Below are positions 6,411 to 56,465 of a stretch of DNA of 64,000 bases, in pieces. The notes under the pieces are model-generated. The model worked only from the letters and a program-made list of their open reading frames with translations. It was not told where the DNA came from and did not search any database. The number at the start of each line of letters is the position of its first letter. Positions within the stretch are counted from its first letter, which is position 1. A program made the position numbers and the translations under genes. The DNA is taken from positions 25,999,322-26,063,321 of the forward strand of contig NC_134516.1 of assembly GCF_027942865.1 (NCBI RefSeq). The letters are read 5' to 3'. This DNA comes from Odontesthes bonariensis. Taxonomy: Eukaryota; Chordata; Actinopteri; Atheriniformes; Atherinopsidae.

Positions 6411-6462
6411 CTTGGTGAATTTGTAGTTCCACAAAGGTCTCTGCTGTGCTATATGATCAGTC

Positions 6463-9400: not shown

Positions 9401-10098
9401 TGAGGGAGGAACCAAGATTCCTTTGAACTGCTCACCTCGTCAGTGTTGATCCTGACAGCATATCCAGCTCTCTCCAGCTTGTGTATCTCTTCATTGTACA
9501 CTGCAGCTTGTTCAGGGTTGGAAGTAAGGCGTCGCTCTGTTGCTCTGAGGAGAGCCATCGCAGCTGTGGGTGGAGCATGGAGTGTGGGTGCATTTGGTTT
9601 ATGCAACAATGGAGTAGCATAGCGGGACACACCGTTGACTGTGACTCTGATAGTCTTCTGCTCCAGTTGTTCCATAGCTGCTTTATCTTCACTAGAGCGG
9701 GTCACTTCCTTGCTGTTTCTGAACGGCAATGTGTCAAGCTTCCAGAGCCTTTCAACATGTTGGTGTAGCTCTTCTGAAGGAGAGAGGAATGTAGAATGAA
9801 GACAGCTGTTCTCACCTGATGACTGATGTAGGAAGGTGGCAGGTCCCTGCACAGCCCATCCCAGAGCCGTGCACACAGCTACAGGTCCACCGATTGGGCC
9901 AGACCGCACTGGGAATACTGGTGTTATCAGGTGAGGGTTGTCGGAACCGATGAGTAGCATAGGCTTGACTTTAATGTAGGAGTGCAATGGAATGTCTCTC
10001 AGGTGCTGGTAGTTTTGTTTCAGGCTGTCCGCTGCACATGATTGTTCAGCTAGATTCAGGTCTGCTGCTGTGAAAGCATGTTGAATGTCATGTTTCAT
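6463..10098 (-). pseudogene. pol: BEL/Pao pol (RT, RNase H, integrase) with an internal stop
   Basis: A single minus-strand frame broken only by TGA at 7,642-7,644. The upstream part (818 codons) opens with the tail of the aspartic-protease region. It continues with reverse transcriptase (catalytic Asp near 288 in SGDIRGMF; the YVDN box at 365-368, a variant of the family's YVDD) and RNase H (D547 in YCDAS, E591, D621 in WTDSTT, Asp near 667). The downstream part (369 codons from its first Met) has the integrase CTEC zinc pair near 42-45, then D78, D140 and E189 of the DDE core. The catalytic Asp-Gly region of the protease is absent. The ATG at 10,098 overlaps the gag stop by four bases (ATGA). 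As it stands the element could not make its own protease or an unbroken RT-integrase. Confidence 0.93.
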
Positions 10099-12041
10099 GT
10101 CATGCAGGGGGAGGTACTCACGGTCAGAACAGTCTCTGTTTGAGCTACATCATGGAGCACAGTGAGGTGTTGTTCTCCACAAGTTGAACAGGGCTTCTTC
10201 AACGTGCAGTTGTCAGATGGATGTCCTCTCCCACACCTCCAGCATCTTTTCTTCTCCTTTATCCAGCCAGCCTTTGCATTGTTGGTGAGCTTGGCAAAGT
10301 CGCTACAGGCGTTGAGGTAGTGTTCTTGGTTACTACAGTAAGGGCAATAGGGCTTAAACCTGTCACGCTTGGATGACTGTAGTGGGGTGCTGGATGCAGG
10401 AGCTGGATTATGTTGCTGTGCCCCCTGGTGGTTGCCGAGTAGAATAGTTGCAGATTTCACTCTTGGCTGCTTCACAGTTCTGCGCTCGCGACTGTCAGCA
10501 TGTGTGGGTTCTGGGGGACATGCACTTATCCGACGGGATACCTGCAGCGTCTGGACTTTCCTCTCGAGCCAGTCTGCCAGATCTGGAAGGGCATATGTCC
10601 TGTCACTGCCACTCTGGATGATTCCCCTGTTGAAGCAGTAATCTGCGAAGGCATCTCTGAAGTTGGGAGGCAGCTTAGTGAGTAGTGTGTCAACATTAGA
10701 ACCACACATCAGTTCTGAAGAGGAGGGACCTTGCATTGTGCTTAACATGCCCACTAGCGTTCCAACTGATGCTGCAAAATCTTCAATACCTTGATAGTCT
10801 CCGGCCTTGACAGGTGGAGCGTTCAGGATGGCATTGAGTTCTCCCTGCACAAGCTGTCTAGGCTGACCATATCTTTGCATGAGAGCTTGCATGGCAGTAG
10901 TGTATGGCGTTGCACTGTGGATGAACCGCTTGGCTATTTGGAGTGCAGCAGGGAATCTGAGGTGGTCAAGAAGGACTTGGTACTTGTAGTCTTCACTTAA
11001 GTGTCTGTGGGGCCCAAGAACACTGTCCAGGCCCTTTTTAAGCATCAGGAAGTCACTTTCCTTCCCGGAGGCAAAAACGGTCAGTTTGGGCTTGGGGATG
11101 CCATATGATGAGGCAATAACCATCTCTAAAACACCTGGTGTATTAGTGTTGTCTGGTGGCTGTACAGGTGGAAGAGGCTGCTGAGGATAATAGTGTTGGA
11201 CAGGAGGAGCAGGATAATATGCAGGCGGATAGGGGTATTGCTGAGGAGGAGGCTGCCAATACTTGGGTGCACTGTTGGCTGGTCGTGATGGGGCATGTGC
11301 AGTCTGAATCGGTGGGGCATGAACTGCAGAGACTGCAGGTGGCACCATCGAGGTAGTTGGATGTGCTGATGAGATGGAGGCTACAGAGTCCACACGTCCC
11401 ATCTGTGAAAGGGGAGCCGATCGTATATATTCACCTTCTGATGCTTGGTCCACATCAGCCTGCAGTGCAGAAGAAGCTTGGTTCACAGCCTCCGCAGGTG
11501 TAGCAGAGTGTGCAGCGTGCGTTGATGGAGCTGCAGCCCTGTCCTGATCCTGAGAGAGCACCATCGGAGCTGGGATTTTTGATGAAGATGGATAATGGAT
11601 CCCGGTGGTACCGGGACACATCTTCTCAAGATGGGGAAGGCTACTGTACTGAGACATATCGGCAGCATAAGGGTGTGAGCGATATGTGGGGTGAGTGTAA
11701 CCAGCCTGAGGGTGAGGAGTCAGTCGTACATTGTTCATTTCAGCCTCTAACTCTCTCATTTGGTGTCTCACGTTTTGCCAGCGTGCCTCTAGCCGCTCAA
11801 GTCTGTCATCAGGGCTCTCATAGGACGGATATGTGGACACTGGATATGGAGGGAATCCTCCAATGTTGGGTGGTGCTGCATATGTTGTCATAGGCGACAC
11901 TGTCCTTGTCACGGTGTGATGAGGGGGTTGAAACGGGTAGCCAAGCTCATAGTCCTCCAGATGTCCGGGAATGCGTCGCATCCTGCTGGGACGGGGACTA
12001 GGTGGCTGCTGCTCGTCGTAATATCCTCTGCTTGTAGCCAT
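10095..12041 (-). CDS. gag: BEL/Pao gag
   Basis: An uninterrupted Gag of about 648 residues from the Met at 12,041 (MATSRGYYDEQ). An in-frame Met six codons upstream (12,059) lies inside the primer-binding site and is less likely. The N-terminal third is Pro-, Tyr- and Gln-rich with a short coiled-coil-like segment (LEARWQNVRHQMRELEAEM). A capsid-like middle region follows. Near the C-terminus are three zinc-binding modules: CX2CX4HX4C, CX2CX3HX4C and CX2CX3HX4H, the usual BEL arrangement. The frame ends shortly after the last module, at the point where the protease region should begin, consistent with an internal deletion at about 10,100. Role: particle assembly and RNA packaging. Confidence 0.88.
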   Translation of the reverse strand: MATSRGYYDEQQPPSPRPSRMRRIPGHLEDYELGYPFQPPHHTVTRTVSPMTTYAAPPNIGGFPPYPVSTYPSYESPDDRLERLEARWQNVRHQMRELEAEMNNVRLTPHPQAGYTHPTYRSHPYAADMSQYSSLPHLEKMCPGTTGIHYPSSSKIPAPMVLSQDQDRAAAPSTHAAHSATPAEAVNQASSALQADVDQASEGEYIRSAPLSQMGRVDSVASISSAHPTTSMVPPAVSAVHAPPIQTAHAPSRPANSAPKYWQPPPQQYPYPPAYYPAPPVQHYYPQQPLPPVQPPDNTNTPGVLEMVIASSYGIPKPKLTVFASGKESDFLMLKKGLDSVLGPHRHLSEDYKYQVLLDHLRFPAALQIAKRFIHSATPYTTAMQALMQRYGQPRQLVQGELNAILNAPPVKAGDYQGIEDFAASVGTLVGMLSTMQGPSSSELMCGSNVDTLLTKLPPNFRDAFADYCFNRGIIQSGSDRTYALPDLADWLERKVQTLQVSRRISACPPEPTHADSRERRTVKQPRVKSATILLGNHQGAQQHNPAPASSTPLQSSKRDRFKPYCPYCSNQEHYLNACSDFAKLTNNAKAGWIKEKKRCWRCGRGHPSDNCTLKKPCSTCGEQHLTVLHDVAQTETVLTVSTSPCMT

Positions 12042-12057
12042 AGCGCAGCTTGTGTAC

Positions 12058-12075
12058 ATCCGGCTCGAAGGACCA
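12058..12075 (-). other. Primer-binding site, tRNA-Tyr type
   Basis: The plus strand reads 'atccggctcgaaggacca', which is the 3' end of eukaryotic tRNA-Tyr including CCA. The minus-strand DNA is therefore complementary to that tRNA, two bases inside the 5' LTR. This fixes the element's orientation independently of the open frames. Confidence 0.85.
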
Positions 12076-12077
12076 CT

Positions 12078-12431
12078 TGTAGAATATATTTTGGATGCTG
12101 GCGTACACAGTCTGGCCTTAGTCTTCTGCTAGAAAAACTGCAGCTACTCCAGAGGTTTCTTTAAATCTTATTTATTGATCCACACAGATCGGAACAGGAC
12201 ACACCATTTGTGTTAGTTGTGGTTTCATTGTACTCACGCACAACCGACACTTATAACAGGAATGACGGGTCCGGCCCGGTTCGGTTTACACCGTTATGAA
12301 TGTGCTCAGCGACCAACAGGTAACACTGCTGCAGTCAGGCTATATTGTTCACGTGTAAATCCAGGACTAATCGGGTCCTTCCGGATGTGATGGTGACGTC
12401 ACACGCACGGCAGAGCAGGGAAGTTTGCACA
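12078..12431 (-). repeat. BEL/Pao 5' LTR
   Basis: 354 bp, apparently identical to the 3' LTR (6,041-6,394), followed by the ACATT duplication at 12,432-12,436. It holds the same CRE palindrome (12,394-12,401), which would lie in the promoter part of the U3-like region on the element's strand. Confidence 0.93.
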
Positions 12432-12436
12432 ACATT

Positions 12437-13480
12437 CATCTTGAAAATCAACAGATATCAGCTCGCTGCACTTTTGCCTGAAAGGATAACAAATCCAAGC
12501 CTGCAATTGTTATTAAGTTTTAAACAAGAGGCACAAGACTGAAGCGTTGGAACAGACAATTATAGCAGATAATAAAACACTTGTGATCTGTGGTGATTTC
12601 AACACTGACCTCTTAAAGGTACATACTCCTAAACAAACTTGTGATTTCTTGGCTGTGTTATACGGTAGAGGCTTGTATTCACTGATCACAAAGCCGAGCA
12701 GAGGAGCCACAGATAGTGCAACATTAACTGACAACATTTTTACACATTCCTTGGACACTGGTATAAATAGTGGTTTGGTAATAAGTGATGTAAGTGATCA
12801 TTTAGCTGTATTTGCAACATTTAATGATCAGCTACAGAGGAAGAAAACAGAAAAGCGTAGATATGAAAGGGTAAGGACTGTTAAAGCAATTAATGCTTCA
12901 GAAATGAGCTTTAAAACAAGAGTGGAATGAGTTTCATACAGATGAAGTAAACACTGCAGACAATTCATTCAACTGTTATTTATCTCTCTATGATAAACAC
13001 TGTCCAACAGGTTTATGTTCACATAAGCATAGTTATGCTGAGAAACCTCGGATAACAAAGGCATTAAAAAATGCATGTGAGAAGAAAAATAAACTTTATG
13101 GAGACTTCATCAAAACTAGAACAGAGGTTGCTGAAAAACGCTGAGATGTACAAAAACAGGCTGACCAACATGTTGAGGCAAGCAAAGAAGCAACATTATG
13201 ATAAAATGTTACAAATAAATCAAAATAATATGAAGCGCACATGGAACATCCTAAATAATGTAATGGTGAATAAGCCTTGATCACCAGATCAACCTAAGTG
13301 TTTCATAAAGGACAATAAGGTGTTTGGCAATCTGACTGAAGCGGCTGATGAATTTAACTCTTTTTTTTTTGTGAATGTGGACCGAGCTCAGCAAAGGAAA
13401 TTACAAATAAACATGGAGATACAGGAAGTGGCTGGAAAGGAGAAAGTAAGGTGATGCCGTCAATGTTTCTTGGTGGACTA
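12437..13480 (+). pseudogene. Non-LTR retrotransposon endonuclease and linker fragment, copy A
   Basis: From 12,540 the frame reads a C-terminal piece of an APE-type LINE endonuclease: the GDFNTDL motif, then DNIFTHSLD and the terminal SDH catalytic motif (ISDVSDHLAVF). From about 13,071, after stops, comes the basic linker that lies between endonuclease and reverse transcriptase (KKQHYDKMLQIN, TWNILNNVM). The frame continues to about 13,470 with FVNVDRAQ, which copy B lacks. The first half of the endonuclease and the whole reverse transcriptase are missing, and several stops interrupt it. It is close to jockey/CR1/L2-type LINEs; I cannot name the clade. Confidence 0.75.
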
Positions 13481-13486
13481 AGTGAA

Positions 13487-13824
13487 ATGGCGTAAATCTG
13501 GTGTCTTTTCAGCCCGTGCATGTGTTTAAAATGCTTGTTGCAGTGGATGCAGTGATAGGGCCGATCGTCTGTGTGGCACTGTGTGTGTCTGTTCAGTGTT
13601 CTGACACAATCAAATGCTTTAGAGCAAACGGGGCACACTTTGAGGGCTTTCTTTGCCACGTTTTGAACAGGTGCAGATGGGCTCTCCTCAGACGTCCCAG
13701 GAGGTGTTTCTAAATGAGCTTCCTTTGTGTCGCTGTCACAGTTCTGAGCGTCAGCGCCTGCCAGAATCTGCTCCAGCCTCTTGCTCTGCAGTGTGTCCTT
13801 AAAACATCTGAGGAAACTGGACAA
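13487..13824 (-). pseudogene. C2H2 zinc-finger protein remnant, copy A
   Basis: A minus-strand frame from MSSFLRCFKDTL (13,824) with an acidic and Ser-rich stretch, then one complete finger (CPVCSKAFDCVRTLNRHTQCH) and the start of a second (CIHCNKHFKHMHGLKRH). A few residues later the sequence leaves the family and runs into the LINE remnant. Copy B keeps at least two further finger-like modules, so copy A is a 3'-truncated fragment. The ends of both copies suggest a dead multi-finger gene or retrocopy. The specific parent gene is not recognised. Confidence 0.65.
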
Positions 13825-14072
13825 GTGGAGGACAAAAGAAGAAGTGTCAGACCTAAAAAACTATCTACAGAAGATGAACAATATCTGAAAGTGATGTCCT
13901 TAAGAAAGAGGAAAAAATCCAGCAAAGACCTGACACAGGAGCTGAGAGATGCATCTGGACCTTCAGCTGATCCATCGGCTGTTGGCCCGAGCCTCATCAG
14001 AGATGGGCTCCATGGAAGGGTGGCTGTCAGGAAGCCGTTCTTAAGGAAGGGAAACAGTAAGCATTGTTTCTA
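13810..14072 (+). pseudogene. Tc1-like transposase N-terminal HTH fragment, copy A
   Basis: The plus frame reads RRSVRPKKLSTEDEQYL, RKRKKSSKDLTQELRDASG and GLHGRVAVRKPFLRKGN. These are the second helix-turn-helix and linker of fish Tc1 transposases. The DDE catalytic domain is absent. It begins within about 15 bp of the zinc-finger start on the other strand. Copy B (62,329-62,510) has lost the last 80 bp. Confidence 0.8.
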
Positions 14073-14594
14073 AGTGCTTGTTAAAATGATCATTTTAGAT
14101 AGTAATTAAGTGTTTTTAGACGATGTGAAAACCGTTTGCTGTGACTTTCAAATCTGCTTCAAAACCTGGACGTGTTTCTTCAGATAAACTCCTGACCAGC
14201 GGTGAAAAAGCAGTGAAAATGTCTGGCCTGTATAAACTTTATGATGTCAAACAAGATCTGAGATGACATCGATTGTGATGTCACTACAGTGATGACATCA
14301 CAGCTTTGTGAAGGCTTCTGCTCTGTCTCTTCTGGTCTGTGGTTCCAACCACAGATTCTGGATGGAAGTGAAGTCCGGATTCCAGAATGTTGATTTGTGT
14401 TCTCTGTTAATCTCTGGACGACTTCAGCTGATTACTTCCTGTCACTGTCACGTTGGAAGGTCCACTTCTGCCAGTTTTTCAGCATACTCATAGCAAATCT
14501 GAGAATACAAGCTGGAAGAGTATCTCTTTCCGCTTGCAACAAAATTTACCTCATTCTTTGGCTTCCGGAACACTCGCAAATTAGCATGGCTTCA

Positions 14595-15514: not shown

Positions 15515-15558
15515 GTTTCCGTAGTGTAGTGGTTATCACGTTCGCCTCAGTGGAACCT
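15515..15558 (+). pseudogene. Chimeric tRNA: Val 5' half joined to Gln 3' end
   Basis: 15,515-15,549 is the 5' half of tRNA-Val (acceptor strand, D-arm, anticodon 5' stem, loop up to CTCA). It runs directly into GTGGAACCT, the 3' acceptor end of tRNA-Gln, and then into about 60 bp that match the sequence behind the real tRNA-Gln at 15,179. The upstream flank matches that of the Val gene at 14,595. So a deletion between a Val and a Gln gene in a duplicated Val-Gln unit produced it. It has no T-arm and cannot fold as a tRNA. Confidence 0.85.
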
Positions 15559-18018: not shown

Positions 18019-18057
18019 TGGAGAATGCGGGCGTCGATCCCGCTACCTCTCACTTGC
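18019..18057 (-). pseudogene. tRNA-Ala 3' half (split gene, unit 1)
   Basis: On minus: the 3' anticodon stem GTGAG, variable bases AGGTA, perfect T-arm GCGGG-ATCGACG-CCCGC, and acceptor ATTCTCC with discriminator A. It pairs with the 5' half at 25,169-25,206 (GGGGAAT). The two halves together are one tRNA-Ala with 7.1 kb of transposase-gene DNA between them. Confidence 0.85.
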
Positions 18058-18089
18058 TCAATTTCGCCAAAGTAAGCCCAAAGTAAGCC

Positions 18090-18295
18090 CACATTAGCCA
18101 ATCACGTCTCAGTTGAGCTTACTTTTGACCAATCACGTTTCCCCCTTTGGGCTTACTTTCGGCTTACATTTGACCAATCAGCGTTCCTCCCTCCCATTTC
18201 TTACTTTTGACCAATCACTGTTCGTCCTTCCTCTCCGGCATACTTTGCCGCATTCTGTAGTCCGGCAGTTCTCAACTTTCCATCTATCTCTAAGG
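18090..18295 (+). promoter_or_regulatory. CCAAT-rich promoter and first (non-coding) exon, unit 1
   Basis: Four direct CCAAT boxes in the context CCAATCA (18,098, 18,129, 18,174 and 18,211) alternate with 'aagtaagccc'-type repeats. No TATA box is evident. A short exon appears to end at AAG|GTAAGT (donor at 18,295). The same layout is preserved in unit 2. Multiple NF-Y-type sites are typical of TATA-less vertebrate promoters. Function is inferred. Confidence 0.55.
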
Positions 18296-18476
18296 TAAGT
18301 CGTGTTTTATTCTGTTATTGACCGTAAACTTGTAAGCTTTTCTAGGGTAAATAAATAGCAAAGGGTGTCGCTAAACGTAGTATAAAATGCAAAATATAAA
18401 AAGTTAAAAATATCGCCTGATATGCGAGTGTGTGAATGATGAGCGAAGCCGCGCTGTTTTATGATAGCTGGAAAAC

Positions 18477-18571
18477 GGATGAATGGATGGATGGATGAAT
18501 GGATGGATGATGGATGAATGGATAGATGGATGGATGAATGGATAGATGGATAGATGGATGGATAGATGGAG
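18477..18571 (+). repeat. (GATG)n/(GATA)n microsatellite, unit 1
   Basis: Imperfect 'gatggatgaatg' repeats in the first intron of the transposase-like gene. The equivalent at 26,694-26,775 is shorter. Confidence 0.85.
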
Positions 18572-19135
18572 TAGTGCCAGGAGACAGTTCTGTTTTTAAA
18601 AATGTAGCTCGGTAGGTCAACAAACTAATAGAAGTCTAACGTAGCTGTCATGCTACCATACAACGCGAATAAGTGTTAGCATTACAGTTACAGAGTACAG
18701 TTAATAAACATCACAGCAATTATCCTAGGCCTGCCGCTGCATGTATTAAAACCAATATGGACAGATATACTGTATGTATGTATTGAAAGTTAGCCTAATG
18801 ACATTTTACATTGCTCTGATGGGTTGGCGTGACGTCAATGTGGCGTTAATCCACGGATCTGATTAGCTGATTTTAGTTCTGATAGAAAGGAAAATAAATA
18901 ACCTTAATAAATTCAGCCTGGGAAAGAAGCTCTGGCTGCACCCCCTGCTGTTTGTCACACCTCTGTGTTACAGCAGGTGCGAGGGTGTGGAATAGGGGCG
19001 TGGCATGTATGGGAAAACTAACACTTTCCCTCAGCTCTGTGTGCAGCTGCTCTGTGTTTGTTTGTTTAATGAGTGAGGGGGGCAGCCTCTGTTACAGATG
19101 AATTTACACATTTTTTCAAAATTTTCATTCACAGA

Positions 19136-22100
19136 ATGTATGCCTATCCAGCTTTTCGCTGCCAGTCAGCCAGTTCAACCAGACTGCTCATGGTGCCGTC
19201 GGAGGAGGCAAAGAGCTTTGGCAGTGTCAGGTCTGGAAGAGCTAAACCCAAAGAGGAGGTGCTGGCAGAGGCCAGCAGCTTTGTCACTGGCCATGGTGGA
19301 GACCAAACTGATGACTTTTTAGTACTGGCTCACTGCCAGCTTCAGTTTGGTATGTACCAAGGCCAGAGATTTAGATGGCTCCTGGAGAACAGTCTTGGCT
19401 ATGCAATATATTTATTGCATAGTATTTCTAATGAAAGAGCACAAGAAACCCCTCTTTCCCAAAACAAACAGCTGCTCCTGCAGTACACTTCCCAAGTCAG
19501 AGAGATGACAGAGGAGCTGGAGAAGTTTAGGAAGAAGCAGGGTATGCAGGCAAGAGCACGGGAAACTGGAGACTCGGGCTGTTTGATGGTGGAGTTTGGA
19601 GATTTCAAGGGCCGCTCCATGAAGGAGGTTTATGAGGACCAGAGCAGGGAGGCCTAGACCCTCATTAAGTACCTGCTGAGAGCAGATGCCCGGCCCAACA
19701 CCAACATGGCCGTGTTCAAGGCATATGTCTTAAAGAGACAGACACCTGCCTCCACTTTCTCTGCACCACCGGCAGCCTCCACTTCCCCTGCACCACCTGC
19801 AGCCTCCACCTCCCCTGCACCACCTGCAGCCTCCACCTCCCCTGCACCACCGGCAGCCTCCACCTCCCCTGCACCACCGGCAGCCTCCACTTCCCCTGCA
19901 CCACCGGCAGCCTCCACTTCCCCTGTACCACCGGCAGCCTCCACCTCCCCTGCACCTCCACCTGCAGCCTCCACCTCCTCTGCACCTCCACCTGCAGCCT
20001 CCACCTTCTCTGCACCTCCACCGGCAGCCTCCACTTCCCCTGCACCACCTGCAGCCTCCACTTCCCCTGCACCTCCACCTGCAGCCTCCACCTCCCCTGC
20101 ACCTCCACCTGCAGCCTCCACCTCCTCTGCACCTCCACCTGCAGCCTCCACCTTCTCTGCACCTCCACCGGCAGCCTCCACTTCCCCTGCACCACCTGCA
20201 GCCTCCACTTCCCCTGCACCTCCACCTGCAGCCTCCACTTCCCCTGCACCTCCACCTGCAGCCTCCACCTCCTCTGGAATCCAAACTGGCCCATGGAAAA
20301 CTGCGACTGTGAAAGCGCTGCTGGCACGGAGCAAACATTTGTCTCCCTCACAGCTGGCAAAAAAGCTGACATCACCAGCCAAACCCTGTGAGTAGCAGTT
20401 TGAATTTTCCCTCCATCAGTTCTACTTGTGTAGCTTTACCATTTTACAGACTTGTAAAACGCAGAGCCTCCACCTTTTTGCAGCTCCAGCACCACAGTGC
20501 CCCTTACCACCACCTTCAAAACCCCTGACGGAACACTTGGCCCAACGGCAGCTTTTCCCCTCTGGTAAGTACGCACCATCCTGTGTACATTTGTCTCTGT
20601 GCGTTGTTAGCAGCAGGCCTGATGGTTTAAACATTTGTTCTCCAGGCACTTCTGAGGTTGATGATGAGGAACTGGTATCTGCTGCAGAGCAATGTGAAGC
20701 ACAGCTAAATACAGGTGTGGCATATGACACATATTGTGAGAAGGTTTAGTGACAACACTAAAAAGTATTATTTTGTGGAAAACTTCTGTGTTTTAATATA
20801 TTTTTCTTCACAATACAGAATTATATCAACCGGGATGCATTCTTTGAGTGCACTTCTTCCAAACCTTAAGGATGTACAAAGGTGTCTGGTTATTGTTTTG
20901 TGATTTTGCTTCCCCCAGCTCACTTCCACTTAACTCTGCGCACCCATGTGCTCTAATACAATCACCTGAATTTTAATGGCATTTTTTGCAGTTACACTGC
21001 ATGCTCCTCTCATTCACGCTTCAGCTCCTCTGAGCCCACAGACGGTGGCCATTCCTTGTTCTAACCATTAGAATCGATTAGTAATCGTAGTCTCTTTACT
21101 GTGTCTGTGTGCATGTTTCATATCTGTGGGCATCATTAATACTACTGAATTCATTTTGCATCATTTTTCTTGCTCTATTCCATTTAATTGTTACTTTTTT
21201 TAACATCATTTCTTGTATTCACAGCTTCATATTTCTTGCATCAGAAAGTGTACACTGGGTTCTTTGCTTCTTAAAACTAATCCTTCAGTTTCTGTCTGTA
21301 GTATTTCTGCACTGCGCCTGTTTGTGAGCTGCATTTATGGCATCTTACTATCAAACGCAACGGTTAATCTAATATTGTTTTGCTGCCTGCTTGCCTCGTT
21401 TCTCCTTCATCAGCTCTTAAGGACAAGCACTGGACGCGATGGCAGCTGGCCTGATGAAGCGGTACAGTGTGGCAGGAGAGGCGCCACCCAGAATTATGTA
21501 CGTGGACAGAGACTGCTGCAGTCAGCATGGCCCTTGTCGGGTGAAGGCCATGTTTTCAGAGTGGGATGGGCTTCAGGTGCGCCTTGATATCTGGCATTTC
21601 ATGCGGCGGTTTGCTGCAGGCGTCACAACTGAGGCCCATCTCATGTACAGCATCTTCATGGCACGCCTGTCCACGTGCATTTTTGAGTGGGATCCGGAAG
21701 ATGTTGTTGCTCTGCGCCTTGCCAAGGAGGGTGAGCTGGCAGCAAAGAGGATCGGCCACATCTCGGAGGAGGCGCTGACCACTCGTATTACCCGGAGGGA
21801 GTTGGCGCTGCACTGCAGGAGGAGGACCAGAGGGGTGGAGGAGACCACCAGACTGATTGGCTCACTGATCAGTCTGTTTGACAGTGTAAGTGGGAAGGAC
21901 ACTCTGGGCGTTCCTCTGCTGGACCATGAACGGATCCAGCAGATATGGCAGGAGCAGAGGAAACATGTGGGCTGCATCCAAGACCCAGAGGACTTCCCAC
22001 TTTACATCAGGACAGGCACCCTGAAGAAAGGCGGTGTGGAGCTGTGCTGCTACAGGTGTGCCCGTGGCTCCACCTCCCTGGAGTCCTTCCACCTCCACCT

Positions 22101-24294
22101 GAACAGATTTATTCCAGGTATTGCCTACATATGGGTTACTACCTATTTTGTCTCAATGTGTGGTTGTAAAGACAATTATTTTTTAACATAATTCTATGAC
22201 ATGTTACAGATCCTTCACAGCATATGTATGTCATATGTAGTGAATATCTTGTACAAATGTGACAAACGCTTCTTTGTTTATTTCCCTTCAGGAACCAGTG
22301 CCAGTGATGCGCATTTCCAGGCGTATCTCCTTGAAGGGGTGATGCGCTGGAATGATGACCGGCTGGAGGACGCCGTCAAAGGAGCACCTGCTTTCCGCGC
22401 TTACGGCAGCGCTCTGAGAGAGGCAGTGGACCAGCTCAGCCAAAGGGTGCTCGGGAGATGCTGGGATGAGCGTTATCGCACGCCTGGAGCATACACAGGC
22501 AAGAAATAATGCCCCATTCAACATGAAAAAGAACAGCGTGATTAATGTGACCTTTAATAACACTATTTATTAATCAGTTAAACCTTTAATGTATTAAAGG
22601 CAGCGGGAAGAGAAAGTGTAGCTGCTGTCCAGGAGAAGACAAACTGTTAGATAGATGTAAGGTGAAATATTAATTACTTTCTGTTTTATGTGTTGTTTCT
22701 GTAGGTGAGTTGCTGGGAATGGAGTACTTGTACAGCCAGACCGGCAACACACTGACTCCTGTGCTCCAGAGCCCAGAGGAGGAGGACAGGCTGGTGGAGG
22801 CAGTCAGCGATGAGGACGTACGGGATGAGGGGTTTGAAGAGGAGACCTTCAACGACATCACCGTTCCTGAGCTCCACGAGGATGACCTCTCCCGTGATCT
22901 GGAGAACAGGCCCTCATCGCTGATGACGAGTCCTCAGGCCTCACCACCTCAGGCCCCTCCATCACCTGCTGACCTGCCGTCCACGTCACATGACGGAGGA
23001 CAACATGCTGTCGCTGGCCCTTCAGCGCTTCCTGACACTTCTCAGGTAAGACACATTACTGGCTATTTCAATCTAATGACATTTTATTTCATATATATTA
23101 CTATTAATCAATTCATTTATTAGGGAGCAGTCTTCGGACCAGATGGGATCGCTGGGTGGGACAAGGTCCAGGATCTGGCGGGTTACCTGGTGGGTCTCCG
23201 TGAGGCTTCTTACCTCACTGAGCTGCAGGTGACCCAGGTCATCCAGCTGTGGACAGCTCTCCCTGAAGGCGACAAAGAGCGGGTCAACTACCAGCCTCGT
23301 CATCAGCCCAGACTGACAAGTGGCCGTTTTAAGGCTCCTAAGCGGTCTGGAGTCACGCCGGGTGTGGAGAGTGTCAAGCGCTGCTTGATTGGACATCCTG
23401 GGGGGCCAGCACAGTGGCCCAGCACCAACCGCTTGGTGGAGGCAATGTGCGCACGGCTGTGCACTTTGCACAAGACCACCACCAAGAAGGCTGGAGTTTC
23501 CACCCCCAGATGGACCAAGATACTCAGCGACTACCACCACATCCGGGACCTAGTGCTCAACAGTCCGCGGGTTCTGGCTGAGACCATGATCCAGCTCTTT
23601 GAGCTAAATCAGAGGACACTCATTCAATGGTAGGTCAGGCACATTATTCACCTCAAATTGACTGAAGAGCTCTCTAATGAATACATATCTAACAAAACTG
23701 GTCTTCTCTCAGGTTTCAACGGCGACAGAAGAGCCAGGAGAAGAGTGTCCTTTCTCAGGGAATGACTGCAACCAACCCGATTCCTCTGGCACCCGACCAG
23801 CTTCCACCACCCAAGGAGAAGCTGGGGCTCCTTCCCTCCACATCTGGCCCCAGGCATGAGTTTGTCCTCCCTCCAAATCTGGAAGGACTCCTGTTCTGCG
23901 GCCAGGCCGACGGCCAACTGCTGCCACCAGGGTGCAATCGATTTTACCCACCTCCACGGCACCAGACACTGCACAGCCCGTGCAGTTCATAATGCTGACA
24001 GCGCCTGGTGCTTCTGCACACAGTGCAGGCCCAGCTCCTCCCATTCTGCCCCCTGCTGCTCCTGTGTCCCGGTTCACAGAGAGGAACAGGCGCCGGCGGG
24101 CTCTCCAGGAGGAGAGTGGAGTCCAGAAAAGGAAGTATGTCAGAGGAGTCGGCTACAACACCTGCAGCCAGTGTGGGCACCCCAAAACAAAAGAGTTCGG
24201 GCACAGTCGTCACGGCAATAAGACATTTTGCTCTCGTGCCTCGAACGGCAAAACTCTGGAAGAGTGGCTGGCAGAACAGAGGCCAGCAAAATAA
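19136..24294 (+). pseudogene. Dada-like DDE transposase gene, copy 1 (broken)
   Basis: Multi-exon gene. Exon 2 starts at an acceptor and MYAYPAFR (19,136). It encodes two modules like the C-terminal domain of ExoX-type proteins (FGMYQGQRFRWLLEN; FGDFKGRSMKEVYED) and an AASTSPAPP repeat. Small exons follow, then the DDE region: second Asp in YVDRDC (21,505), LDIWHFMRR, and Glu in TSLESFH (22,081). Later exons are 22,292-22,498, 22,705-23,045, 23,124-23,629 and 23,713-24,294. The last carries a cysteine/histidine zinc-binding module (CSQCGHPKTKEFGHS ... FCSRA). Damage: TAG at 19,655 (CAG in copy 2), a deletion near 21,420 removing the DUF6729-like region and first catalytic Asp, and a frame change near 23,932-23,990. 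The protein family is a multicopy aquatic-animal family that I recall as DUF6729-containing. Confidence 0.75.
19745..20275 (+). repeat. 27/30-bp coding minisatellite, copy 1 (about 19 units)
   Basis: In-frame repeats encoding AASTSPAPP (27 bp) or AASTSPAPPP (30 bp), with two repeated blocks of higher order. It lies in the exon-2 frame of the transposase-like gene. The long minus-strand frames through it are shadows. Copy 2 has about 25 units. Confidence 0.92.
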
Positions 24295-24466
24295 ATCTGT
24301 TTCTCTTGTAAATATTGTATATTGTGTGCTATAGTATGTATATATTTTTTCTGTACAGTTTTTTTTACTTAGTGTACAGTTTTTTTTACTCGTGTGTATA
24401 GTTTCACTTCAAAGTGTGCCTTTTAACCGTGAGTCTGAAGGAGATTTCATTATCTTGTATAATGGC

Positions 24467-24472
24467 AATAAA
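24467..24472 (+). terminator. Polyadenylation signal AATAAA of the transposase-like gene
   Basis: AATAAA about 175 bp past the stop codon at 24,292. Another AATAAA overlaps the stop region itself. Copy 2 has lost this part. Confidence 0.5.
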
Positions 24473-25168
24473 GACTCTTTATTCTTCTTGATTCTTAAAT
24501 ATTTGTTTATTTTACATTTTGTTCATCTACATTAGATCTGATTGTGCCAAAATTTAAGACTCAGCCTGTACATCATCAAAAAAGCTCCATATTACTCCAT
24601 ATACCAGCTCCCACAGTCTTTGAAGACACTTTATTGTTATCATTATTATACAGAAACAGAAATAAACATGACAAGTCATTAGGGGGGCATTTGATATTAA
24701 ATCCAAAGCAATGCTCTTCATAATAAACACAAAATTATAAGTATGAATCAATACAATGACGTGACACTGCTATGGCATCAGGCACACTTATTATCATTAT
24801 GGCTATTGTTATTGTTATTATAATAACAATAAACAGATAAGCATTATTGGTCATTGGGGGCATTTAACCCTAAAGCTAAAGCCATGTTCTTAGTAATACA
24901 CAAAATAAGTATTAATTAATACAATGATCAGAAATCGCGATCGGATTTCTGATCGCGAGGGCGCATCACAGCTCTGTCCTGCACATATCTGGTTCGAATC
25001 TAGCTCGCGGCAGGTAAGTCCATTGACATAAGATTCAAAATCTTCCATAATGCACAGAGATATCGCCTGGATATAGCTGCATGGAAAACTGTCTCTGATA
25101 TTTCCTTAATCTGTATTTTCTGCGTCTTTTCACTTGCGTTGACGGGCTCAAAGATCGGCTCCCTTCCT
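24473..25168. other. Non-coding sequence between transposase gene and tRNA-Ala 5' half
   Basis: AT-rich sequence with TTATTG-type simple repeats (24,790-24,835) and a near-palindrome 'agaaatcgcgatcggattt' at about 24,929-24,953. A B-box-like 'ggttcgaatct' near 24,993 does not fold into a tRNA. If the insertion model is right, this is the right end of the element. No clear inverted terminus matching the left side (after 18,057 or 26,249) was found. Confidence 0.45.
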
Positions 25169-25206
25169 ATGCGAAGCGAGCGCTCTACCATTTGAGCTAA
25201 TTCCCC
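25169..25206 (-). pseudogene. tRNA-Ala 5' half (split gene, unit 1)
   Basis: Minus strand from 25,206: acceptor GGGGAAT, TA, D-arm GCTCAAATGGTAGAGC, G, 5' anticodon stem CTCGC, and loop bases TTCGCAT (anticodon CGC). Homology to tRNA stops in the loop. The matching 3' half lies at 18,019-18,057. Confidence 0.85.
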
Positions 25207-26209: not shown

Positions 26210-26249
26210 TGGAGAATGTGGGCGTCGATCCCGCTACCTCTCACTTGCG
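26210..26249 (-). pseudogene. tRNA-Ala 3' half (unit 2)
   Basis: Same sequence as 18,019-18,057, with one T-stem change (CCCAC for CCCGC) and a fuller junction, 'cacttgcg' then 'cttactgtgttccg'. Unit 1 lost those junction bases. The matching 5' half has been deleted from unit 2. Confidence 0.82.
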
Positions 26250-26304
26250 CTTACTGTGTTCCGTCAATTTCGCCAAAGTAAGCCCAAAGTAAGCCCAAAG
26301 TAAG

Positions 26305-26511
26305 CCCACATTAGCCAATCACGTCTCAGTTGAGCTTACTTTTGACCAATCACGTTTCCCCCTTTGGGCTTACTTTGGGCTTACATTTGACCAATCAGCG
26401 TTCCTCCCTCCCATTTCTTACTTTTGACCAATCACTGTTCGTCCTTCCTCTCCGGCGTACTTTGCCGCATTCTGCAGTCCGGCAGTTCTCAACTTTCCAT
26501 CTATCTCTAAG
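26305..26511 (+). promoter_or_regulatory. CCAAT-rich promoter and first exon, unit 2
   Basis: Four CCAATCA motifs with one extra 'aagtaagccc' repeat relative to unit 1. The exon ends at AAG|GTAAGT (donor at 26,512). Confidence 0.55.
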
Positions 26512-26693
26512 GTAAGTCGTGTTTTATTCTGTTATTGACCGTAAACTTGTAAGCTTTTCTAGGGTAAATAAATAGCAAAGGGTGTCGCTAAACGTAGTAT
26601 AAAATGCAAAATATAAAAAGTTAAAAATATCGCCTGATATGCGAGTGTGTGAATGATGAGCGAAGCCGCGCTGTTTTATGATAGCTGGAAAAC

Positions 26694-26775
26694 GGATGAA
26701 TGGATGGATGGATGGATGAATGGATGGAAGGATGATGGATGAATGGATAGATGGATGGATGGATGGATAGATGGA
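26694..26775 (+). repeat. (GATG)n microsatellite, unit 2
   Basis: Shorter and rearranged version of the intron-1 repeat at 18,477-18,571. Confidence 0.85.
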
Positions 26776-27340
26776 GTAGTGCCAGGAGACAGTTCTGTTT
26801 TTAAAAATGTAGCTCGGTAGGTCAACAAACTAATAGAAGTCTAACGTAGCTGTCATGCTACCATACAACGCGAATAAGTGTTAGCATTACAGTTACAGAG
26901 TACAGTTAATAAACATCACAGCAATTATCCTAGGCCTGCCGCTGCATGTCTTAAAACCAATATGGACAGATATACTGTATGTATGTATTGAAAGTTAGCC
27001 TAATGACATTTTACATTGTTTTGATGGGTTGGCGTGACGTCAATGTGGCGTTAATCCACGGATCTCATTTGCTGAATTTAGTTCTGATAGAAAGGAAAAT
27101 AAATAACCTTAATAAATTCAGCCTGGGAAAGAAGCTCTGGCTGCACCCCCTGCTATTTGTCACACCTCTGTGTTACAGCAGGTGCGAGGGTGTGGAATAG
27201 GGGCGTGGCATGTATGGGAAAGCTAACACTTTCCCTCAGCTCTGTGTGAAGCTGCTCTGTGTTTGTTTGTTTAATGAGTGAGGGGGGCAGCCTCTGTTAC
27301 AGATGAATTTACACATTTTTTCAAAATTTTCATTCACAGA

Positions 27341-30300
27341 ATGTATGCGTATCCAGCTTTTCGCCGCCAGTCAGCCAGTTCAACCAGACTGCTCATGGTG
27401 CCGTCGGAGGAGGCAAAGAGCTTTGGCAGTGTCAGGTCTGGAAGAGCTAAACCCAAAGAGGAGGTGCTGGCAGAGGCCAGCAGCTTTGTCACTGGCCATG
27501 GTGGAGACCAAACTGATGACTTTTTAGTACTGGCTCACTGCCAGCTTCAGTTTGGTATGTACCAAGGCCAGAGATTTAGATGGCTCCTGGAGAACAGTCT
27601 TGGCTATGCAATATATTTATTGCATAGTATTTCTAATGAAAGAGCACAAGAAACCCCTCTTTCCCAAAATAAGCAGCTGTTCCTGCAGTACACTTCCCAA
27701 GTCAGAGAGATGACAGAGGAGCTGGAGAAGTATAGGAAGAAGCAGGGTATGCAGGCAAGAGCACGGGAAACTGGAGACTCGGGCTGTTTGATGGTGGAGT
27801 TTGGAGATTTCAAGGGCCGCTCCATGAAGGAGGTTTATGAGGACCAGAGCAGGGAGGCCCAGGCCCTCATTAAGTACCTGCTGAGAGCAGATGCCCGGCC
27901 CAACACCAACATGGCCTTGTTCAAGGCATATGTCTGAAGAGACAGACACCTGCCTCCACTTCCTCTGCACCACCGGCAGCCTCCACTTGCCCTGCACCAC
28001 CGGCAGCCTCCACTTCCCCTGCACCACCTGCAGCCTCCACTTCCCCTGCACCACCGGCAGCCTCCACCTCCCCTGCACCACCGGCAGCCTCCACTTCCCC
28101 TGCACCACCTGCAGCCTCCACTTCCCCTGCACCACCTGCAGCCTCCACCTCCCCTGCACCTCCACCTGCAGCCTCCACTTCCCCTGCACCACCTGCAGCC
28201 TCCACCTCCCCTGCACCACCGGCAGCCTCCACTTCCCCTGCACCACCGGCAGCCTCCACTTCCCCTGCACCACCTGCAGCCTCCACCTCCCCTGCACCTC
28301 CACCTGCAGCCTCCACTTCCCCTGCACCACCTGCAGCCTCCACCTCCCCTGCACCACCGGCAGCCTCCACTTCCCCTGCACCACCGGCAGCCTCCACTTC
28401 CCCTGCACCACCGGCAGCCTCCACTTCCCCTGCACCACCGGCAGCCTCCACCTCCCCTGCACCACCGGCAGCCTCCACTTCCCCTGCACCACCTGCAGCC
28501 TCCACTTCCCCTGCACCACCTGCAGCCTCCACTTCCCCTGCACCACCTGCAGCCTCCATTTCCCCTGCACCACCTGCAGCCTCCACCTCCTCTGCACCTC
28601 CACCTGCAGCCTCCACCTCCTCTGGAATCCAAACTGGCCCATGGAAAACTGCCACTGTGAAAGCGCTGCTGGCACGGAGCAAACATTTGTCTCCCTCACA
28701 GCTGGCAAAAAAGCTGACATCACCAGCCAAACCTTGTGAGTAGCAGTTTGAATTTTCCCTCCATCAGTTCTACTTGTGTAGCTTTACCATTTTACAGACT
28801 AGTAAAACGCAGAGCCTCCACCTTTTTGCAGCTCCAGCACCACAGTGCCCCTTACCACCACCTTCAAAAGCCCTGACCGAACACTTGGCCCAACGGCAGC
28901 TTTTCCCCTCTGGTAAGTACGCACCATCCTGTGTACATTTGTCTCTGTGCGTTGTTAGCAGCAGGCCTGATGGTTTAAACATTTGTTCTCCAGGCACTTC
29001 TGAGGTTGATGATGAGGAACTGGTATCTGCTGCAGAGCAATGTGAAGCACAGCTAAATACAGGTGTGAAATATGACACACATATTGGGAGAATGTTTAGT
29101 GACAACACTAAAAAGTATTATTTTGTGGAAAACTTCTGTGTTTTAATATATTTTTCTTCACAATACAGAATTATATCAACCGGGATGCATTCTTTGAGTG
29201 CACTTCTTCCAAACCTTAAGGATGTACAAAGGTGTCTGTGTATTGTTTTGTGATTTTGCTTCCCTCAGCTCACTTCCACTTAACTCTGCGCACCCATGTG
29301 CTCTAATACAATCACCTGAAATTTAATGCCATTTTTCGCAGTTACACTGCATGCTCCTCTCATTCACGCTTCAGCTCCTCTGAGCCCACAGACGGTGGCC
29401 ATTCGTTGTTCTAACCATTAGAATCGATTAGTAATCGTAGTCTCTTTACTGTGTCTGTGTGCATGTTTCATATCTGTGGGCATCATTAATACTACTGAAT
29501 TCATTTTGCATCATTTGTCTTGCTCTATTCCATTTAATTGTTACTTTTTTTAACATCATTTCTTGTATTCACAGCTTCATATTTCTTGCATCAGAAAGTG
29601 TACACTGGGTTCTTTGCTTCTTAAAACTAATCCTTCAGTTTCTTTCTGTAGTATTTCTGCACTGCGCCTGTTTGTGAGCTGCATTTATGGCATCTTACTA
29701 TCAAACGCAACGGTTAATCTAATATTGTTTTGCTGCCTGCTTGCCTCGTTTCTCCTTCATCAGCTCTTGCAGCCACTGTGCATCTGGAGGCCGGTGCCGA
29801 TCCTCCACCAGCAGCGATACCGGGTCTGGTTCTTCATCAGCCACCGGCTGAGCTTCCCAGTCACTGGAAGAGTCAGCTTCCACCTTTCCAGCAGGAGTGG
29901 ATTCGGCGCACCTTGTTCAAGACCAACCCACGAACCGGTAAGCCGGAGCTGGTGGCTCCGCTGAAGCTTTGGTGGCATCCTCCTCAGCCCCCCCTCATCC
30001 ACAGCCAGCCTCCCGCCTCACCCGACCAGTTCTTCTGTCGGCCAGTCTTCCTGTGGATGCCCCAGAAGATGTGGCTGTTTCCTCTCATCTGTGTCCGTCC
30101 AGCCTGTGGCAAGCGCAGACTAACAGCAGCAGGGCTGTACCAAACGGTGCGCAAGGTGTTGGACATTGACGGGTGGTATGACCTTGCCACTGAGTACCTG
30201 GAGTGCAAAGGCTGCTCTAAAAAGTATCCTGCTTGGTCCGAGGACATCTTAGGCCAGCTGGATATGGGCCACCGCAGCCAGTTTCCAGCTTTGCTTACAT

Positions 30301-32888
30301 ACAGGTCATTCATAATGAATGTTAACCATTATGAGGTGCTTGCATTTGAGTTGTTATTGACATTACACTCTTTCCTTCCCTTAGATACTCATGTGACATC
30401 CGGGTGCTGAGGATGATGAGGGAGAGGACGATGGGCAACAGTGTGACTCAGCTGTACAAAAAGCTGCTGGAACAGCACAGCGAAACATGGATGCAGCGTG
30501 TCCTGCAGTACCTCACAGCTTGTGAACCATTCACAAGGTCCTCTGTAGTGTGCCCCCGTGCATTCGCTGAGCCTCCCCTCTTACCTGCGCTTCCCAAGCC
30601 CAAGTGGCTGTTAGCCGTGTATGCCAGGGATGTTCTTGGGCGACTTCATGAGGTCAAAGCCAAAATCACCAGCATCTTTGGCTCTGTCCTCAAGATGGAC
30701 TCCACGAAAAAGGTATCACAGCTCTGTTTATAAGCAGAATTCTGAGTGTATACATAATGAATACAGATTTGAACTCTTTTTTTTTTTTCTAATCTTTATC
30801 TTTTCTGCATAGGTCACCAAGAAACTTGCTGGTGCTGCTGCAGGTACAGCTGCCTGGTGCACGAATGTGGGCAACGAGCACGGTCAGGTTCTTGTCTCGG
30901 TCCTGACAGCCGGCGAGGGACAAGCACTGGACGCGATGGCAGCTGGCCTGATGAAGCGGTACAGTGTGGCAGGAGAGGCGCCACCCAGAATGATGTACGT
31001 GGACAGAGACTGCTGCAGTCAGCATGGCCCTTGTCGGGTGAAGGCCATGTTTTCAGAGTGGGATGGGCTTCAGGTGCGCCTTGATATCTGGCATTTCATG
31101 CGGCGGTTTGCTGCAGGCGTCACAACTGAGGCCCATCTCATGTACAGCATCTTCATGGCACGCCTGTCCAAGCACATTTTTGAGTGGGATCCGGAAGATG
31201 TTGCTGCTCTGCGCCGTGCCAAGGAGGGTGAGCTGGCAGCAAAGAGGATCGGCCACATCTCGGAGGAGGCGCTGACCACTCGTATTACCCGGAGGGAGTT
31301 GGCGCTGCACTGCAGGAGGAGGACCAGAGGGGTGGAGGAGACCACCAGACTGATTGGCTCACTGATCAGTCTGTTTGACAGTGTAAGTGGGAAGGACACT
31401 CTGGGCGTTCCTCTGCTGGACCATGAACGGATCCAGCAGATATGGCAGGAGCAGAGGAAACATGTGGGCTGCATCCAAGACCCAGAGGACTTCCCACTTT
31501 ACATCAGGACAGGCACCCTGAAGAAAGGCGGTGTGGAGCTGTGCTGCTACAGGTGTGCCCGTGGCTCCACCTCCCTGGAGTCCTTCCACCTCCACCTGAA
31601 CAGATTTATTCCAGGTATTGCCTACATATGGGTTACTACCTATTTTGTCTCAATGTGTGGTTGTAAAGACAATTATTTTTTAACATAATTCTATGACATG
31701 TTACAGATCCTTCACAGCATATGTATGTCATATGTAGTGAATATCTTGTACGAATGTGACAAACGCTTCTTTGTTTATTTCCCTTCAGGAACCAGTGCCA
31801 GTGATGCGCATTTCCAGGCGTATCTCCTGGAAGGGCTGATGCGCTGGAATGATGACCGGATGGAGGACGCCGTCAAAGGAGCACCTGCTTTCCGCGCTTA
31901 CGGCAGCGCTCTGAGAGAGGCAGTGGACCAGCTCAGCCAAAGGGTGCTCGGGAGATGCTGGGATGAGCGTTATCGCACGCCTGGAGCATACACAGGCAAG
32001 AAATAATGCCCCATTCAACATGAAAAAGAACAGCGTGATTAATGTGACCTTTAATAACACTATTTATTAATCAGTTAAACCTTTAATGTATTAAAGGCAG
32101 CGGGAAGAGAAAGTGTAGCTGCTGTCCAGGAGAAGACAAACTGTTAGATAGATGTAAGGTGAAATATTAATTACTTTCTGTTTTATGTGTTGTTTCTGTA
32201 GGTGAGTTGCTGGGAATGGAGTACTTGTACAGCCAGACCGGCAACACACTGACTCCTGTGCTCCAGAGCCCAGAGGAGGAGGACAGGCTGGTGGAGGCAG
32301 TCAGCGATGAGGACGTACGGGATGAGGGGTTTGAAGAGGAGACCTTCAACGACATCACCGTTCCTGAGCTCCACGAGGATGACCTCTCCCGTGATCTGGA
32401 GAACAGGCCCTCATCGCTGATGACGAGTCCTCAGGCCTCACCACCTCAGGCCCCTCCATCACCTGCTGACCTGCCGTCCACGTCACATGACGGAGGACAA
32501 CATGCTGTCGCTGGCCCTTCAGCGCTTCCTGACACTTCTCAGGTAAGACACATTACTGGCTATTTCAATCTAATGACATTTTATTTCATATATATTACTA
32601 TTAATCAATTCATTTATTAGGGAGCAGTCTTCGGACCAGATGGGATCGCTGGGTGGGACAAGGTCCAGGATCTGGCGGGTTACCTGGTGGGTCTCCGTGA
32701 GGCTTCTTACCTCACTGAGCTGCAGGTGACCCAGGTCATCCAGCTGTGGACAGCTCTCCCTGAAGGAGACAAAGAGCGGGTCAACTACCAGCCTCGTCAT
32801 CAGCCCAGACTGACAAGTGGCCGTTTTAAGGCTCCTAAGCGGTCTGGAGTCACGCCGGGCGTGGAGAGTGTCAAGCGCTGCTTGATTT
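27341..32888 (+). pseudogene. Dada-like DDE transposase gene, copy 2 (3'-truncated)
   Basis: The copy with the fullest catalytic region. Exons readable from splice sites: 27,340-28,736 (MYAYPAFR start; one-base frame loss near 27,933), 28,832-28,912, 28,994-29,062, one from 29,342, 29,764-30,303, 30,385-30,712, 30,813-31,614, 31,789-31,995, 32,202-32,542, and 32,621 onward, cut at 32,888. The 29,764 exon holds the DUF6729-like region (WIRRTLFKTN, CVRPACGKRRLT, LECKGCSKKYPAW). Candidate DDE residues: Asp in KMDSTKK (30,698), Asp in YVDRDC (31,002), Glu in TSLESFH (31,578), with LDIWHFMRR between. The C-terminal zinc module is gone. The D, D, H-containing and E motifs resemble those shared by MuDR, hAT, P, Kolobok and Dada enzymes. 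The Dada assignment rests mostly on the tRNA insertion site. Confidence 0.75.
27952..28625 (+). repeat. 27/30-bp minisatellite, copy 2 (about 25 units)
   Basis: Same AASTSPAPP-type array as copy 1 but longer, with mostly 27-bp units and only four 30-bp ones. A missing base just before the array (27,933) puts it out of frame with exon 2 in this copy. Confidence 0.92.
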
Positions 32889-33112: not shown

Positions 33113-33206
33113 CAGTGTTTCCCATACATTGAGGAAACTATGGCGGCCCGCCATAGTTTCCATTTGGCCGCCATAGTTTGGCCGCCAATCGTTTGAAACA
33201 CAGCGA

Positions 33207-33237
<31 letters not shown>

Positions 33238-34494
33238 TTTTTGAAACACAGCGATTTCCTCGAAAACCAACCAATATGACTATACAACAGGTGAATTAGT
33301 AATTAAACATGTCCTAAAGTGTGCAATGTCAGAGTTTCGAAGTTTAGTGGCAAAAAAGATTTATGTATTATTAGTCGCTGTCGGGGCGATTGACACACGT
33401 TATAGATCAGTGGGTGCGCATGCATAAAGATCAGCTGTAATCATCGTGATTTCGTTGACAAACATATTTTTTTGACCTATTTATATTCTGAGAAATAATG
33501 TGAAATTTGAGCAATGACGAATACACTAGTATGTTGTCCGGTATGTTGCTTAAAAAAAGAGTAAGCTCAATAGTTTCTGTTTAAAATAAGGTGTTTCATC
33601 CGTCCCGCATGTGTGGTTCAACCATCCCGACCAGGCGGAGCGGGGTGAAGTTGGTTTTATATTCGACATTCGCCTATTTTCCGGCTTTGTAATTGTAATA
33701 GCGTCACGAAAACCTCACCAATTAGCCTCAGGATGGTATTAATATTTACAGAAAACTAAGACTAACATACCACAGGCTTTATCAACTCACCAAAGTAAGC
33801 CTGAAAGATCAGAGTAACCGCGCCGAATATACTCTAAGTGAACTACGGCAGCCGGAGCGCTTAGGGACCGTCGCAAAAGTGCAACGCCTTTTTTTGTTCT
33901 CACTGGATATTCAACCAATGAACACCAAACCACTTCGGATGGGTTTGTGAACTCACTATAAAGCTTTCACAGTCTTTTAGTTTCCAGAAAAATCATTTTA
34001 GGTAGAACATTTACTCAGTGTGCATAGTTAATTCCATTTTAGACTTTTATTTTGTAATAGCTCTCTTGTTTTTAAAGATATCAACACCAAAACACTTCTG
34101 ATGTGTTCCTGAACTCATTGTGTACTTCCCACACCCTTTGTTATCAAGGAAAACCTTTTCAAGTTTCTCAAAAAGGCATAATTCCTCACTGTATATGATC
34201 CATTCATATTTTTCATGAAGTTTAGTTTTAACCTGTAAATATTTTCTATTACAATTGTTATCATTGGGTTTTAATGACAAGATGAGGTTTCCTCATAAGC
34301 CCAAAAGGGTTTCTGACATCTCCAGCACACATTCCTTTTTTTTAATTTGGTGTGTTTTATTGTGTATTTTTTTTTTTATTTGAATGAATGTGTGCAAATC
34401 AATCAAATAAAATAAAATCTGCAGTCGCACAAATGTACGCCGCACAAATTCACGCCGCGTGGATTATAGTCATAGTTTCCAAAAATTCTGTGGG
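33113..34494. mobile_element. 1.38-kb insertion with imperfect inverted ends
   Basis: It interrupts sequence that is continuous in unit 1 (25,810-25,825, 'gatcaaaattatacc'). It starts 'cagtgtttccca' and ends 'ttctgtggg'; 'ggaaactatgg' near the left end reappears inverted near the right end. AAAAT lies on both sides (33,108-33,112 and 34,495-34,499) and once in the empty site, suggesting a 5-bp duplication. Near the left end is 'atggcggcccgccat', a palindrome. No coding frame is seen. The left terminus resembles hAT elements, but those make 8-bp duplications, so the superfamily is open. Confidence 0.65.
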
Positions 34495-34554: not shown

Positions 34555-34589
34555 GACGAGGTGGCCAAGCGGTTAAGGCGATGGACTGC
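34555..34589 (+). pseudogene. tRNA-Ser 5' half, cut in the anticodon
   Basis: Identical to the first 35 nt of the tRNA-Ser at 25,875 except one D-loop change (CAAGC for CGAGC). It stops at 'gactgc', inside the GCT anticodon, and runs into 'ataatttataaatatata', which leads into the 2-kb array. Confidence 0.9.
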
Positions 34590-35562
34590 ATAATTTATAA
34601 ATATATAAATTATGATAGGCTACAAAAAAGTGATCACAGCCAGCCAGAGGACTTTAGGTAACACTTCACAATACTGACTGTGTATTAGAGTGTACATTCC
34701 GTTCACTTATTTCCTACTTTGCCCGGACTTCCAGTGTAGCCTAACTCCTGGCCAATTCCCACCTTCTCCAGTCTTACAGCATAACTCGCCACGACACTTA
34801 CCATGTAATACGCGAAACTACCCCAACTTTTTGCTCATGGCGGTTGTGTATGTATACATGTCAGCGGACAAGCTTCACCCTTATTCCAGGGATTTATTAT
34901 GTTTGTCTTACAGCCTTGTATGATTGGGAATAAGAATATGTTGAGAAATGGACAAAACAAAGTGTCCCTGACATAAAATAACAGAGTTGCACTGATTTTT
35001 CTTATTCATGTTGTTCCTTCATTTAGCTAATACTACTACTGCTTTGATTACCCACTGAAGCCTCTTCCTGTCTGCCTCAGTGCAGGTCCCAGCGGGCTCT
35101 CAATACAAGGTGCTCAGCAGTTTGGTGTCTAGATTGTTCAATCTGGACAATGTGTTGGTCCTCCTCACTGTTGGGCCCATGTCAGGATTGCTGGAGATTA
35201 CAGTAAAATACACCCTGACATAGCCTACAGTTAAGAGTGAACATCTCAGACCCTGTAATGTGACCTTGCATTTTTCTATTTTGGAGCCAAAATGTTGCAG
35301 GTGTGCGGACAAAGTGGAGTACCATTTTAATGGTTTGAATGTGTTAAAACAAAACAACTCATGTCTGTGTGGCATGTGTTTAACTAATAGAACTAGCACT
35401 TGAACCCAAACGCACAACTCAGGAACCAAAGGAGTACCCAGTAAACAAAATAGTACAAACTACAAAAAACACTTTATACAAAACACATTCTCAACAGAAC
35501 TATATAACACGCACACACACTGGTAGTAATTCAAACATTCCCTTTCATAACTATAACTAACT

Positions 35563-35606
<44 letters not shown>

Positions 35607-35689
35607 AGAATAACCACAAAAAGAAACCATTAACAATTATGAACCAAAAAAGAAAATATGTTCAGCTAACTAATCACGTCATCATGTGA

Positions 35690-36010
35690 TTGGCTGTTGC
35701 AGAATCAAACGTCTTCAGGCTGCTCTGATTGGCTGTCGTAGGATCGAACGTCTTCAGGCTTCTCTGATTGGCTGTCGCAGGATCAAAGGTCTTCAGGCTG
35801 CTCTGATTGGCTGTCGCAGGATCAAACATCTTCAGGCTACTCTGATTGGCTGTCGCAGGATCTAACGTCATCAGGCTGCTCTGATTGGCTGTCACAGGAT
35901 CAAAGGTCTTCAGGCTGATCTGATTGGCTGTCGCAGGATCAAAGGTCTTCAGGCTACTCTGATTGGCTGTCGCAGGATCAAAGGTCTTCAGGCTGCTCTG
36001 ATTGGCTGTC
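35690..36010 (-). repeat. 39-bp CCAAT minisatellite (about 8 units)
   Basis: Same 39-bp unit as at 901. The neighbouring CTAA run (35,557-35,607) is expanded here relative to other units. Confidence 0.92.
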
Positions 36011-56463: not shown

Positions 56464-56465
56464 CG

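Follow-up and report, generated by a model that had tools for sequence, protein, structure and literature searches.

What divides a tRNA-Ala gene in the genome of the fish Odontesthes bonariensis, and did it arrive there once or twice? The gene lies in a stretch of 64,000 nucleotides (assembly GCF_027942865.1, contig NC_134516.1, positions 25,999,322 to 26,063,321 of the forward strand), here called the window, from whose first letter all positions below are counted. A first-pass annotation made from the letters alone proposed that a Dada-type transposon had inserted into the gene. We find that the window almost certainly holds two decayed copies of Dada-tA, a DDE DNA transposon that targets the anticodon loop of tRNA-Ala, with its own gene running opposite to the tRNA. 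Dada-tA is an element type already known, and the annotation recognised it correctly.

Copy 1 occupies 18058-25168 on the plus strand and has half a tRNA-Ala gene on either side, both halves on the minus strand. The 3′ half (nucleotides 39-72) lies on its left at 18020-18053, and the 5′ half (nucleotides 1-38) on its right at 25169-25206; each completes the other as a full tRNA-Ala(CGC). When the flanks are joined without the insert, ARAGORN, run blind to the halves, calls a complete 73-nt tRNA-Ala with anticodon CGC and a paired acceptor stem. The halves had been placed at the two edges by the first-pass annotation, which also saw their complementarity in the acceptor stem; both observations stand, and the halves join into one tRNA rather than deriving from different tRNA genes. 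In place, they are not called as tRNA genes by ARAGORN or by Rfam. As a control, random segments of the window were joined, and 3 of 3000 joins yielded a tRNA; in each of these, one segment alone carried 72 nt from a tRNA-Ser or tRNA-Gln gene that is intact. Over the whole window at the curated threshold Rfam finds four intact tRNAs and no family besides tRNA; below threshold, in 13000-36000, it gives three weak matches to plastid untranslated regions, all antisense to tRNA genes.

The second copy (26251-32884, plus) also adjoins a tRNA-Ala half, so that each copy in the window has tRNA-Ala sequence at its edge. The 3′ half on its left (26211-26244, minus) belongs to a stretch matching the tRNA joined from copy 1 with 94.9% identity over 39 nt (26249-26211); the 100% self-matches of that query arise by construction, since it was assembled from the copy 1 halves. 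The insertion point in tRNA-Ala(CGC) corresponds to nucleotides 33-38, in the anticodon loop. Alignment of the left junctions places the target site of copy 2, TTGCGC, at 26245-26250, and a remnant of the 6-bp site of copy 1, TTGC, at 18054-18057, where about 15 bp are missing relative to copy 2. At the right junction of copy 1 the site, read on the Dada strand, is ATGCGA (25169-25174), followed by the rest of the tRNA. This is simply tRNA-Ala with anticodon CGC, though a single-base change would be indistinguishable from it, as would ATGCTA replaced in part. The sequence CGCA, thought at first pass to be shared by both edges, is a real core, but it is only part of the 6-bp site, which reads ATGCGA or TTGCGC, and the left edge of copy 1 is the one that has lost sequence. 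No convincing terminal inverted repeat had been seen, and we too find no inverted word of 8-12 bases common to the two ends when about 300 bp of each, the left from copy 2 and the right from copy 1, are compared.

The coding capacity of the element is best read in copy 2, in which the catalytic exons remain in open frame and the right (3′) end is deleted into the flank. Five exons on the plus strand have AG acceptors and GT donors, with one GC, and the frame is open throughout. The first (29764-30304, its left border, an acceptor, placed by eye) contains the start of DUF6729 and an N-terminal zinc finger, Cx4Cx32Cx2C. The second (30385-30712) carries the first catalytic D in KMDSTK, and the third (30813-31614) the second D in YVDRDC, a DxxH motif in LDIWH and the E in SLESFH. 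The fourth (31789-31995) has the GC donor, and the fifth lies at 32202-32542. PF20499 (DUF6729) spans residues 34-264 of the joined protein with E 2.5e-91; the word DUF6729 does not occur in the papers of the literature searched. The protein thus has a DDE triad in which DxxH (DIWH) follows the second D, with a D1-D2 spacing of 68. The D of MDSTK, both D residues of YVDRDC, the D and H of LDIWH and the E of SLESFH are each kept in at least 90% of 51 aligned relatives, which bears out the motifs that had been described from the letters.

Copy 1 retains both ends except for the small left deletion, together with a 3′ coding exon (23124-23629, plus) with AG/GT borders and an open frame. Its last coding stretch (23713-24295, plus), inside which the open frame switches, ends in a C-terminal zinc finger, Cx2Cx9Hx8C. 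An internal deletion near 21418-21421 has removed about 1.15 kb including the exon with the first catalytic D, and MDSTK is absent from all three forward frames. Its first long open reading frame ends early, at a stop at 19655-19657. Because of this loss and this stop, copy 1 is dead. The first long open reading frame of copy 2 terminates at 27937, and by this reading neither copy can encode a whole transposase. A minisatellite of 27-30 bp within the gene, encoding PPAASTS-like repeats, lies at 19700-20290 in copy 1 and 27930-28625 in copy 2 and differs in length between them.

How closely does this match Dada? We compared it with the accounts in PMC3706591, PMC8869645 and PMC7780238. In the first two, the superfamily is described as DDE transposons with DxxH, no terminal inverted repeats and target site duplications of 6-7 bp, targeting multicopy small RNA genes; the published zinc fingers are an N-terminal Cx4Cx34Cx2C and a C-terminal CCHC, and Dada-tA inserts in tRNA-Ala, often exchanging ATGCTA for TTGCGC, at times on one side (PMC3706591, PMC8869645). 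The present element shares introns, DDE with DxxH and zinc fingers with Dada in general, having an N-terminal CCCC finger in copy 2, a C-terminal CCHC finger with the published spacing in copy 1, and an insertion within a small RNA gene. With Dada-tA (Dada-tA_DR, Dada-tA_OL and later fish families; Kojima and Jurka 2013, Kojima 2022) it shares the anticodon-loop site in tRNA-Ala, the gene antisense to the tRNA, and TTGCGC in place of ATGCTA at 26245-26250; it differs in that both copies here are broken. Dada-U6_DR has the same D1-D2 spacing of 68, the same C-terminal finger spacing, a multi-exon gene and no terminal inverted repeat; unlike our element it targets U6 snRNA genes, and its N-terminal finger is Cx4Cx34Cx2C. 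It is the agreement of site, orientation, TTGCGC, introns, DDE/DxxH, both zinc fingers and the lack of terminal inverted repeats with published Dada and Dada-tA that supports the Dada-type identity proposed at first pass. We suggest that the Dada-tA transposase would recognise a short sequence in the tRNA-Ala anticodon loop and insert there, with the zinc fingers and the catalytic core probably selecting the target by its DNA sequence.

A search with the transposase matched 520 proteins at E ≤0.001 among 7982 candidates scored, and the relatives described here are the best 120 of these. Species are named for 116 of them, which by reading of the names comprise 108 fish and 8 from lancelet, acorn worm, echinoderm or mollusc. 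In a further comparison over 29766-31995, with 60 of the 120 listed, 26 relatives have at least 70% identity to the query and the next has 64.6%. In a midpoint-rooted tree of the query and 34 of the 120, the query falls in a group of 23 rows (support 100/99) with 22 fish proteins, from carp, Carassius, loach, medaka, cod, sea bream, shad and others; among the matches listed none of the 22 bears the name Dada-tA. The nearest relative listed, from Leuresthes, has 91% identity across 427 columns, and the branch joining it (91/92) is not starred. Some well-supported (starred) joins run contrary to fish kinship (P0004, P0009, P0019, P0024), with medaka beside cypriniforms at 98/94 and shad beside cods at 96/87. 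Such a conflict could reflect horizontal transfer or old paralogues.

Did the element arrive once or twice? Flanks included, the units at 17.8-25.9 kb and 26.0-34.6 kb duplicate each other in tandem. The duplication takes in a tRNA-Ser, which is broken in the second unit; 33113-34494 of that unit has no counterpart in the first. Between the copies the flanks differ at 27/573 sites (4.7%) and the element at 58/4704 (1.2%; Fisher P = 1.3e-7), for segments picked by eye and with sites that are not independent under conversion. The count omits 18058-18075, the repeat-rich region around 19700-20290, and copy 1 past 23385, where copy 2 offers no partner. Removal of the stretch running into the broken tRNA-Ser leaves the flanks at 21/481 (4.4%; P = 6.0e-6 against the element). 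The noncoding parts of the element differ at 31/2300 (1.3%; P = 5.7e-6 against the flanks) and the 5′ noncoding part alone at 20/1032 (P = 0.003). From these counts the element looks younger than the unit duplication, or converted. If it is younger, there were two hits at the same base: copy 2 may have inserted independently at this position of tRNA-Ala, and each copy would have entered separately a tRNA-Ala/tRNA-Ser unit that had duplicated beforehand, instead of a single insertion being duplicated later. The possible but less probable alternative is a single insertion, in which the unit was duplicated in tandem with its Dada and gene conversion then homogenised the elements beyond the flanks. 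In its favour, the units are arranged head to tail at a distance of about 8.2 kb, their flanks are homologous on either side, and divergence is uneven along the element (1.7%, 1.6% and 0.6%), as patchy conversion would give; yet each of the three parts shows less divergence than the flanks taken together (P ≤0.0004 each, or ≤0.0021 when the flank set is reduced), and the same holds for the noncoding parts. The identity as Dada-tA is unaffected by this choice.

Several points weigh against the reading of two decayed Dada-tA copies. Both separate insertion and gene conversion would be compatible with the divergence data. The sites TTGCGC (copy 2 left) and ATGCGA (copy 1 right) agree at 4 of 6 bases, their partners (copy 1 left and copy 2 right) are lost, and neither copy shows a clean duplication. 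The target anticodon is CGC here and AGC in the published zebrafish cases; the D2-E spacing is 192, compared with 176 in Dada-U6_DR. The likeness to Dada is drawn from published descriptions rather than from direct comparison with named Dada protein sequences. 

A comparison of whole sequences in the PDB with a 556-residue part gives no match at E 1. A fold search points to the ISCth4 transposase of the bacterial IS256 family, which is about 10% identical in sequence and whose element has terminal inverted repeats; the fold matches listed include no hAT, P or MuDR structure, which excludes none of these groups. The C/DxxH motif is common to MuDR, Kolobok, hAT, P and Dada in the published accounts, and the element might be a different tRNA-targeting DDE transposon of one of these types, or a captured host gene that merely resembles Dada. 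We consider this very improbable, as the zinc-finger spacings, the lack of terminal inverted repeats, the precise position in tRNA-Ala and TTGCGC match the published accounts of Dada-tA, and both copies are broken, unlike a host gene. That chance rearrangement placed two tRNA-Ala halves at the edges of an unrelated repeat is scarcely credible, even in a cluster holding further broken tRNA genes (15515-15549 and 34555-34589), when the halves make up a single tRNA with no base missing or repeated and the left junction recurs in copy 2 beside TTGCGC.

The first of those broken genes is the 5′ half of a second tRNA-Val, which stops at the anticodon and runs into the 3′ tail of a tRNA-Gln with its flank, as if sequence between cluster units had been deleted. 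At 34555-34589 a tRNA-Ser 5′ half is cut in the anticodon region; an AT-rich palindrome comes next and tandem repeats after it, and a search of the window at E 0.05 gives no 3′ half. The three broken 5′ halves detected (tRNA-Ala, tRNA-Val and tRNA-Ser) all stop near the anticodon loop, which may be chance. Elsewhere in the window there is a tandem array of units of about 2 kb with an internal 39-bp minisatellite (1-2331, 34645-38621 and 50240-57579), and a large duplicated block, in pieces, at 1-14484 and 55335-62921. Just one copy of the block contains a retrotransposon that looks to be of BEL/Pao type, with 361-bp ends (6034-6394 and 12071-12431) that are 99.4% identical; no relative of its open reading frame exceeds 74% identity among the 120 matches listed, and those with names come mostly from fish but include some from molluscs and one from a sea star.

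The locus confirms an element of a described but unusual type: a DNA transposon whose address within tRNA genes is fixed. Neighbouring units whose elements are seemingly younger than the duplication may exemplify repeated natural hits at one base. With one-sided site replacement and an IS256-like fold, how Dada carries the old target sequence along becomes testable via circles.
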